Assembly (NCBI GenBank): GCA_039680605.1
Contig: JBDKTA010000029.1
Span: 1-37,232, forward strand
Origin: Planctomycetaceae bacterium
Lineage (GTDB): Bacteria; Planctomycetota; Phycisphaerae; SM23-33
Reading direction: 5' to 3'
DNA: 37,232 nt
This document shows positions 3,273 through 4,445 of the stretch, one piece after another (position 1 is the stretch's first letter; each line of letters opens with the position of its first letter). A program made the position numbers and the translations under genes. The notes under the pieces were generated by a model, which had not been told where the DNA came from, ran no database searches, and worked only from the letters and a program-made list of their open reading frames with translations.

Positions 3273-4193
3273 ATGCCTGACGCGCCCGGCCTGAGCCTGT
3301 CGGTCGTCATTCCGTGCCTGAACGCCGCCGCCACCCTGCCAGCCCTTCTGGAAAGCCTCCAGGACCAGACGCTCAGCCGCGACCAGTACGAAATACTGCT
3401 GCTGGACGACGGCTCGGCCGACGGTACGTGCGGGGTCGCCCAGCGCTACCCCCGCGTCGCGATCAGCCGCCAACACGGCCGCGGACCCGGGGCGGCGCGC
3501 GAGGCGGGCACAGCAGAGGCCCGTGGCGAACTGGTCCTGTTTCTTGACAGCGACACCCGCGCCGCGCCCGATCTGCTCCAGCGGCACCTGCGGTATCACC
3601 GGGCGAATCCCGGCGTCGCCGCCACCGGCGGCAGCGTGCTGCCCGCAGCGCCGTTCAAAATCCTGAGCTGGCAGACGGTCGATCATCTCAGCAGTTGGTT
3701 CAACTGCCACCCCGCCGCAAGGTGCAAGGCCCCCCCGGAGTATCTGCCTTCCCTCAATTTCTGCATCAAGAAAGACCTCGTGCGAGGCTGCCACGTGCAT
3801 TGGGCCGGCGGCCTGGAACACTCCGGCGAGGACGTGCTCTTCTGCCACGACCTGCGCCGCGAAGGGCTGACGCTGGCGTTTGTCCCTGAGGCGAGGGTCT
3901 ATCACCACGATCGCCGCACCGCCGGGGCATACCTGCGCCACATGTACCGATGGGGACGCCATGCCCCGCACGTGCGCGGGCGGTTGGCGTCGCTGAAGTA
4001 TTCGTTTCTCTTCCCCCGCAGCCGCGTGAAACTGCTCTTCACGCTGCCGCTGATCGTGATGGGCTACACGGCGCTGATCGCCGCCGCATGGCTGCACGCC
4101 AAACCGCTGACGGTTCTGATGTGCCTCCCGCAAATCCTTCTAGGCCGCCTCGCCTACGCCGCCGGCGTGTGGACCGGCACGCGCCGCCCCTGA
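3273..4193 (+). CDS. Glycosyltransferase family 2, membrane associated
   Basis: A 306-residue GT-A fold enzyme. The N-terminus SVVIPCLNAAATLPALLESL is the typical GT2 opening; DDGS near residue 46 and DSD near residue 90 are the nucleotide-sugar and metal-binding motifs. An acidic SGED motif near 188 is a plausible catalytic base region. A hydrophobic segment at about 250-285 would attach it to the inner face of the membrane. It starts one base after the radical SAM stop codon. The gene ends inside an 8-bp sequence that is repeated on the far side of the palindromic element downstream. Donor and acceptor are unknown. Confidence 0.9.
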   Translation: MPDAPGLSLSVVIPCLNAAATLPALLESLQDQTLSRDQYEILLLDDGSADGTCGVAQRYPRVAISRQHGRGPGAAREAGTAEARGELVLFLDSDTRAAPDLLQRHLRYHRANPGVAATGGSVLPAAPFKILSWQTVDHLSSWFNCHPAARCKAPPEYLPSLNFCIKKDLVRGCHVHWAGGLEHSGEDVLFCHDLRREGLTLAFVPEARVYHHDRRTAGAYLRHMYRWGRHAPHVRGRLASLKYSFLFPRSRVKLLFTLPLIVMGYTALIAAAWLHAKPLTVLMCLPQILLGRLAYAAGVWTGTRRP

Positions 4194-4194
4194 C

Positions 4195-4390
4195 CTAATG
4201 CCTCAGTCACGGGGGGGGGGGAAAGTCGCGGCGGAGGCACCAAGTATTTATCAAAGCCGTTGTTTGGCTTTGATGAATACTTGCGCCGACAGGTGGAAAC
4301 AGCCCTAAATGAAGAAGTAATTCAAGAAAACGAATTACTTCTTCATTTAGTGCCTCCGCCGCGACTTTCCCCCCATAACTGAGGGGGTAC
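4195..4390 (+). repeat. Palindromic element able to fold into a three-way junction
   Basis: No protein is encoded here. Outer arms 4201-4240 and 4350-4384 pair: the innermost 24-25 bp are perfect, then two mismatches and a longer G run on the left (11 G against 6 C), then seven more pairs. Inside are two independent AT-rich hairpins. The first is 4241-4258 with 4266-4283 (18 bp, one G-T pair, 7-nt loop); the second is 4305-4323 with 4332-4350 (19 bp perfect, 8-nt loop). They are joined by a 21-nt single-stranded linker, 4284-4304. The eight bases CCCCTGAC flank the whole at 4187-4194 and 4391-4398, as a target duplication would. It could be a non-autonomous mobile element, a structured RNA, or an elaborate terminator. 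Confidence 0.9.
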
Positions 4391-4445
4391 CCCCTGACGC
4401 TGGTTTCACTTGGTCACCATCAGACCGTGTGCTATTCTTAATGCC

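Follow-up and report, generated by a model that had tools for sequence, protein, structure and literature searches.

The long palindrome at positions 4195-4390 of the window, i.e., the 37,232-nt stretch of a Planctomycetaceae bacterium contig analyzed here, is very probably a non-autonomous MITE of the IS66/ISBst12 type. It is identified as such because the ends of its relatives in another genus match the terminal repeats of IS66-family transposase loci and because copies are flanked by 8-bp duplications. While MITEs are usually held to need their ends only, with an interior free to drift, this view is reversed here, as the stems inside the element vary least of all its parts, even in copies without ends. 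A folded core that is kept by paired changes across three genera while the remainder drifts is unusual for a MITE. A repeat that is abundant between the genes of a planctomycete lineage is now linked to a known transposase family, and it becomes a testable question whether small transposons succeed in bacteria by virtue of DNA shape or of an insulating/terminating function.

The limits 4195 and 4390, proposed by a first-pass annotation, proved to be the element ends to the base and lie between two identical direct repeats of 8 bp, the target-site duplication CCCCTGAC, at 4187-4194 and 4391-4398. The left terminal end CTAATGCCTCAGTCAC (4195-4210, family consensus GTAATGCCTCAGTCAY) is followed by the 5' arm of the outer stem GGGGGAAAGTCGCGGCGGAGGCAC (4217-4240), which leads from an A-tract into a GC-rich stem. 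Hairpin A (4241-4283) consists of an AT-rich stem of 18 bp (4241-4258/4266-4283) with the loop GTTGTTT and one T-G pair, and a variable, unpaired linker of 21-22 nt (4284-4305) connects it to hairpin B (4306-4349), whose stem is likewise AT-rich and 18 bp long (4306-4323/4332-4349). The 3' arm GTGCCTCCGCCGCGACTTTCCCCC (4350-4373) leads from the GC-rich stem into a T-tract. All of these parts are given on the plus strand, while the right terminal end (4374-4390) reads on the minus strand as the reverse complement GTACCCCCTCAGTTATG (family form GTATCCCCTCAGTTAY). The outer stem, the two AT-rich hairpins, and the linker had already been described, and they were recovered both by an inverted-repeat search (outer arms 4216-4243/4347-4374, 28 nt, 96%) and by folding, with z-scores of about -13 relative to dinucleotide shuffles. 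The 281 nt of surroundings folded as DNA into a three-way junction of -91 kcal/mol (z -12.7, reached by 0 of 200 shuffles), and the identical three-way junction was obtained as RNA at -161 kcal/mol (z -13.0). By its Pfam match, the gene upstream encodes a family-2 glycosyltransferase, whereas TPR repeats are the only Pfam match of the downstream gene, so the earlier placement between two glycosyltransferase genes holds for the upstream side only. The TGA stop of the glycosyltransferase ORF (4191-4193) lies inside the left copy of the duplication, and the insertion therefore occurred directly behind the gene and left its stop intact.

When the window copy was compared by BLAST with its source genome (5.23 Mb in 72 contigs), about 38 whole or partial elements were identified across many contigs, with about 35 dispersed copies of ~200 bp that hold no coding gene. 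Lined up on the core, the copies occur in both orientations, and outside the core many of them share the left end GTAATGCCTCAGTCAY and the right end GTATCCCCTCAGTTAY, which are imperfect terminal repeats that follow the pattern GTAAnnnnTCAG. Direct repeats of 8 bp were found at clear-ended copies, namely CCCCTGAC in the window, GCCAAACG at L002, GCAGACGC at L012, and CCCGTGGC at L025, while the flanking duplication of L020 agrees at 7 of 8 positions. Among the two-ended copies, 8/8 duplications occurred in 4 of 11 and a 7/8 duplication in one, with none in the shuffled control. Dispersed gene-less copies, terminal inverted repeats, and a fixed 8-bp target-site duplication are the marks of a MITE, and a non-autonomous element was indeed among the suggestions of the first-pass annotation. 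Approximately half of the copies lack one or both ends. The nearest-neighbor distance of the linker was 0.12, 0.18, and 0.22 for copies with both, one, and no ends, respectively, and judged by this distance the end-less copies are older. Viral, phage, and plasmid collections contained no match to the element.

Relatives in other genera were reached by the covariance model only, where BLAST against 34 other genomes of the family gave none. The model (R1), a check that had been suggested beforehand, returned diverged relatives in two genomes of other genera in the same family, with 21 matches in G005, a Planctomycetales MAG whose copies share the layout of the window element, and 8 in G022. Together with the source genome, these account for 3 of the 397 genomes of the class, with none further found by the covariance model. 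An exact pattern search of GTDB contigs yielded 39 stretches, all from Planctomycetales bacterium CSMAG_1105, and the exact hairpin-B pattern had no match in the genome contig collection. The 34 copies collected from G005 showed an 8/8 duplication in nine cases and a 7/8 duplication in eight (17/34; control 1.9%), those with duplications being bounded by the ends GTAAGAGTTCAGCC and GTAACTATTCACCC, and many of the G005 elements are young. For the eight G022 copies, ends could not be defined. Two cores lie about 110 bp apart in inverted orientation in this genome (L102:1501-1653 and 1764-1916). In the first 250 bases of two G005 contigs of 12106 and 9367 bases (L114 and L202), an element with inverted-duplicate flanks and reverse-complement "duplications" at the contig start was observed, an arrangement that is probably a fold-back assembly artefact.

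Ends that start with GTAA and an 8-bp duplication are found in the element as in the IS66/ISBst12 group, and at the level of sequence they point to the IS66 family. ISDge4 of the ISBst12 group, with the ends GTGACTACTCAGCA/GTAACTGCTCAGCA, has a repeat of 8 bp (PMC12898284). Such insertion sequences share with the element the GTAA ends, TCAG at the same offset, and the length of the duplication, but they are autonomous, 1.6 kb long, carry their transposase, and have no palindromic core. The G005 ends GTAAGAGTTCAGCC (sister type GTAACAGTTCAGCCGTTTGCAA) match the terminal repeats GTAACTCTTCAGCCGTYTGCAA of single-ORF IS66-family transposases in sister genomes, whose ends are near-identical to those of the short G005 elements. 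One of these loci (L170, 1640 bp) carries a single ORF of 526 aa (NCBIfam NF033517, E 1.2e-80) between terminal repeats of this type agreeing at 22/22 positions, and the other (L168, 1617 bp) has an internal stop and terminal repeats of the same type agreeing at 21/22. A sister set of short G005 elements has the ends GTAACAGTTCAGCCGTTTGCAA, which are identical to the right end of L168 at 20 of 22 positions, and this match ties the short elements to IS66/ISBst12 transposases. The end motif occurs 69 times in G005, while its reversed control does not occur. The window copy's own ends agree with those of L170 at only 10 of 15 positions, GTAA and TCAG among them. The IS66 transposase domain PF03050 is present in 13 of 35 family genomes and was found neither in the source genome nor in G005, the assemblies of which are both incomplete and broken at repeats. 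The window copy would have been moved in trans by an IS66-family transposase that is now missing from its own assembly. For some copies a different mode of spread is conceivable, since copies without ends occur in the source genome and no ends were definable in G022. In the parts of the literature available to a search for IS66/ISBst12-type MITEs, no paper naming both was found, though IS66 and MITEs are mentioned in eight.

Across the 32 aligned copies of the source genome, 97.6% of 1882 pair cells were standard pairs. Two-sided changes were detected at 7 pairs and in 20 cells, compared to 3.0 and 4.2 in shuffles, and covariation with compensating changes was present in all three stems. The outer stem of 24 bp has changed at most positions from genus to genus (GGGGAAAAGTCGCGGCGGAGGCAC, AAGAAAAGAGCAAGTCAGGCACAC, GGGAAAAACCTCCGGCGGGGACAC) and yet remains 97.6-100% paired. 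Hairpin B, at least 98% paired, persists in each of the three genera; hairpin A persists in two, whereas G022 has it replaced with the total length nearly unchanged. The cross-genus alignment is guided by the model, but that the new arms are complementary can be seen directly in the raw sequences. Divergence from the consensus in the source genome amounted to 1.5% in the GC stem and 3-4% in the hairpin stems versus 13% in the loops and 27% in the linker, and the end-less, older copies still keep their stems at 0.5-3%. G005 copies with near-perfect duplications diverge by 0.6-1.4% in the stems, 4-11% in the terminal 14 bases, 17% in the linker, and 30% in loop B, so that the variation of linker and loop predates their jump. 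Even in freshly inserted copies, linker and loop divergence reaches 32% versus ~1-4% in the stems. As the constraint is already present in recently inserted copies, the stems are constrained in the spreading lineages and, it seems, after insertion too.

In the copies examined, extra hairpin modules (CCTGCCTGCCGGCAGGCAGG and others) were located in loop B or the linker and never in a stem. In G005, nested modules CCTGCCTGCCGGCAGGCAGG, GGGTGGCACGGTCAAG..., and CTCGTCAGGGCGACCC... were observed in loop B or the linker of L112, L116, L145, L150, L163, and others, and several of the module-bearing copies retain duplications of 7-8/8. The alternative hairpin-B loops AGAAGAT, AACGGAT, and AAAAGA recur in G005 and G022 although the stems differ. 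Kissing of loops A and B was rejected as a general feature, because the complementary pair GTTGTGT/ACACAAC is confined to the main subfamily of the source genome and absent from the subfamily of the window copy as well as from G005 and G022. A small ORF from hairpin B (ATG AAG AAG TAA; MKTKSRR in G022) was also discarded, with the start lost in L102:1764-1916 and the frame not kept.

All 33 source-genome copies placed in gene context were intergenic, with 16 in divergent, 13 in tandem, and 4 in convergent gaps, and stem conservation was equal in the three types of gap. Genes were called with a home-made codon-usage caller, and distances to start codons are therefore approximate. Tandem copies lay within 30 nt of a stop codon in 10 of 13 cases in the source genome (G000; P 0.005 with promoter space barred) and in 13 of 22 cases in G005, where the same test was not significant. 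Relative to their neighboring genes, the tandem copies are in the same and opposite orientation at a ratio of 5:8 in the source genome and 17:5 in G005 (22 tandem copies, binomial ~0.02). G-U and C-A deviations from standard pairing were found in 19 versus 16 types across copies, and in 11 versus 10 cells when tandem copies were read on the transcribed strand. These similar frequencies indicate a strand-neutral upkeep of the stems and give no sign of a strand-specific RNA. While the G-T pair noted earlier in hairpin A is real and such pairs are common, its reading as a sign of selection on an RNA or a single strand is not supported, given that G-U and C-A are equally frequent.

For the function of the core, we tentatively favor a bidirectional terminator/insulator, with somewhat less than even confidence. 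The core would act alike on both strands, most likely to end transcription in either direction or to insulate. Its layout of A-tract, ~16 bp stem, and T-tract is common to the three genera on both strands and is, by analogy, that of a bidirectional intrinsic terminator, in which the AT-rich inner hairpins would bring the stem arms together. Termination would make insertions behind genes harmless or tolerable. Several observations count against this reading. A scan for intrinsic terminators in the simple sense (a GC stem with a short loop and then 5 or more T in 8) found none, the loop being too long and the T-tract being TTTCCCCC. The T-tract of the window copy has only 3-4 T, and G-C pairs continue outside it. 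Furthermore, the stems are just as well conserved between divergent genes, neither of which reads into the element, and 16 of 33 copies lie in such gaps, where no terminator is needed.

The core might instead be a mobility device, although we consider this rather unlikely. A cruciform whose base coincides with the inner margin of the terminal repeats would place both ends side by side for the transposase. The strand-neutral constraint on the stems, which recently inserted G005 copies already show, is consistent with such a fold, as are the strongly palindromic but unrelated interiors that occur between the same ends (L085; L148, L149, and L145:2019-2249). In contrast, copies without both ends, which are hence immobile, retain their stems, and core-less mini-elements of 38-52 bp exist, which may or may not have moved as such. 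With similarly low expectation, some IS66-type MITEs might form a class that relies on a three-way-junction palindrome as a folded DNA module, either to move or to be tolerated. Its marks would be selection on shape in both strands, loops free to vary, hairpin modules that can be exchanged, and an outer stem whose sequence changes from genus to genus while its pairing persists.

It is improbable that the stems are kept without any selection, through self-repair of the palindrome and hypermutability of its exposed loops. The high variability of loops and linker even between young copies agrees with this, as does the restriction of inserted modules to the linker or loop B. However, repair from arm to arm matches the arms without slowing their change, yet the stems have hardly departed from the family sequence and diverge less than the terminal ends of the same young G005 copies.

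A slightly poorer prospect is a strand-specific structured RNA carried by the element, be it a small RNA, a riboregulator, or a 3' UTR structure. The strong fold, the covariation in three stems, and the excess of G005 tandem copies in gene orientation would fit. Nonetheless, G-U is not in excess over C-A, orientation is mixed with the opposite tendency in the source genome, half of the copies sit in divergent gaps, and Rfam returned only chance-level matches (best 26.6 bits versus a gathering threshold of 56.8). With stems independent of context, an RNA acting from one strand, as the first-pass annotation had offered, is not favored; its statement that no named family has this layout holds for Rfam.

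Mobilization as folded single-stranded DNA, also raised beforehand, is very improbable as the work of a RAYT/Y1 (HUH) transposase: linker-separated inverted hairpin units, intergenic and in many copies, do recall REPINs, and 15 Y1_Tnp matches occur in the source genome, but none of these genes adjoins a copy, the element of ~200 bp with its 24-bp outer stem is unlike a GTAG/GGAG-tagged REP unit of 20-40 bp and has no linked RAYT, and the IS66-type ends and 8-bp target duplications, which HUH/Y1 elements are not known to make, speak against this route.

The element has partial parallels in other bacteria. In the Bacillus cereus group, bcr1 is a dispersed repeat of ~155 bp with mobile-element features and a conserved fold, properties it shares with the element described here, but neither its sequence nor its host nor its target duplication is the same. 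QMITE2 of Coxiella exemplifies bacterial MITEs with stable transcripts, and in the part of its description available, MITEs of this type are similar in being ~200 bp long and gene-less, with terminal repeats, direct repeats of 7-9 bp, and a strong fold; a three-way-junction core kept between genera by compensating changes sets the present element apart from that part of the description (PMC10969869).

Other elements with related ends were also observed. In the source genome, L085 (C25:94097-94243) has ends of the same kind (CTAACGCCTCAGTTAT...GTAACTGAGGCATTGC) and a 7/8 duplication CCTGACRA, while its interior consists of unrelated GC-rich REP-like hairpins, i.e., other palindromic cargo between the same ends. 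Sister MITE types with the ends GTAACAGTTCAGCCGTTTGC and other palindromic interiors were found in G005 at L148:3626-3743, L149:6729-7031, and L145:2019-2249 (contig coordinates), one copy of 231 nt folding at -121 kcal/mol. Two mini-elements of 38 and 52 bp in G005 (L164:4092-4129 and L157:13139-13190, contig coordinates) comprise little beyond the two ends.
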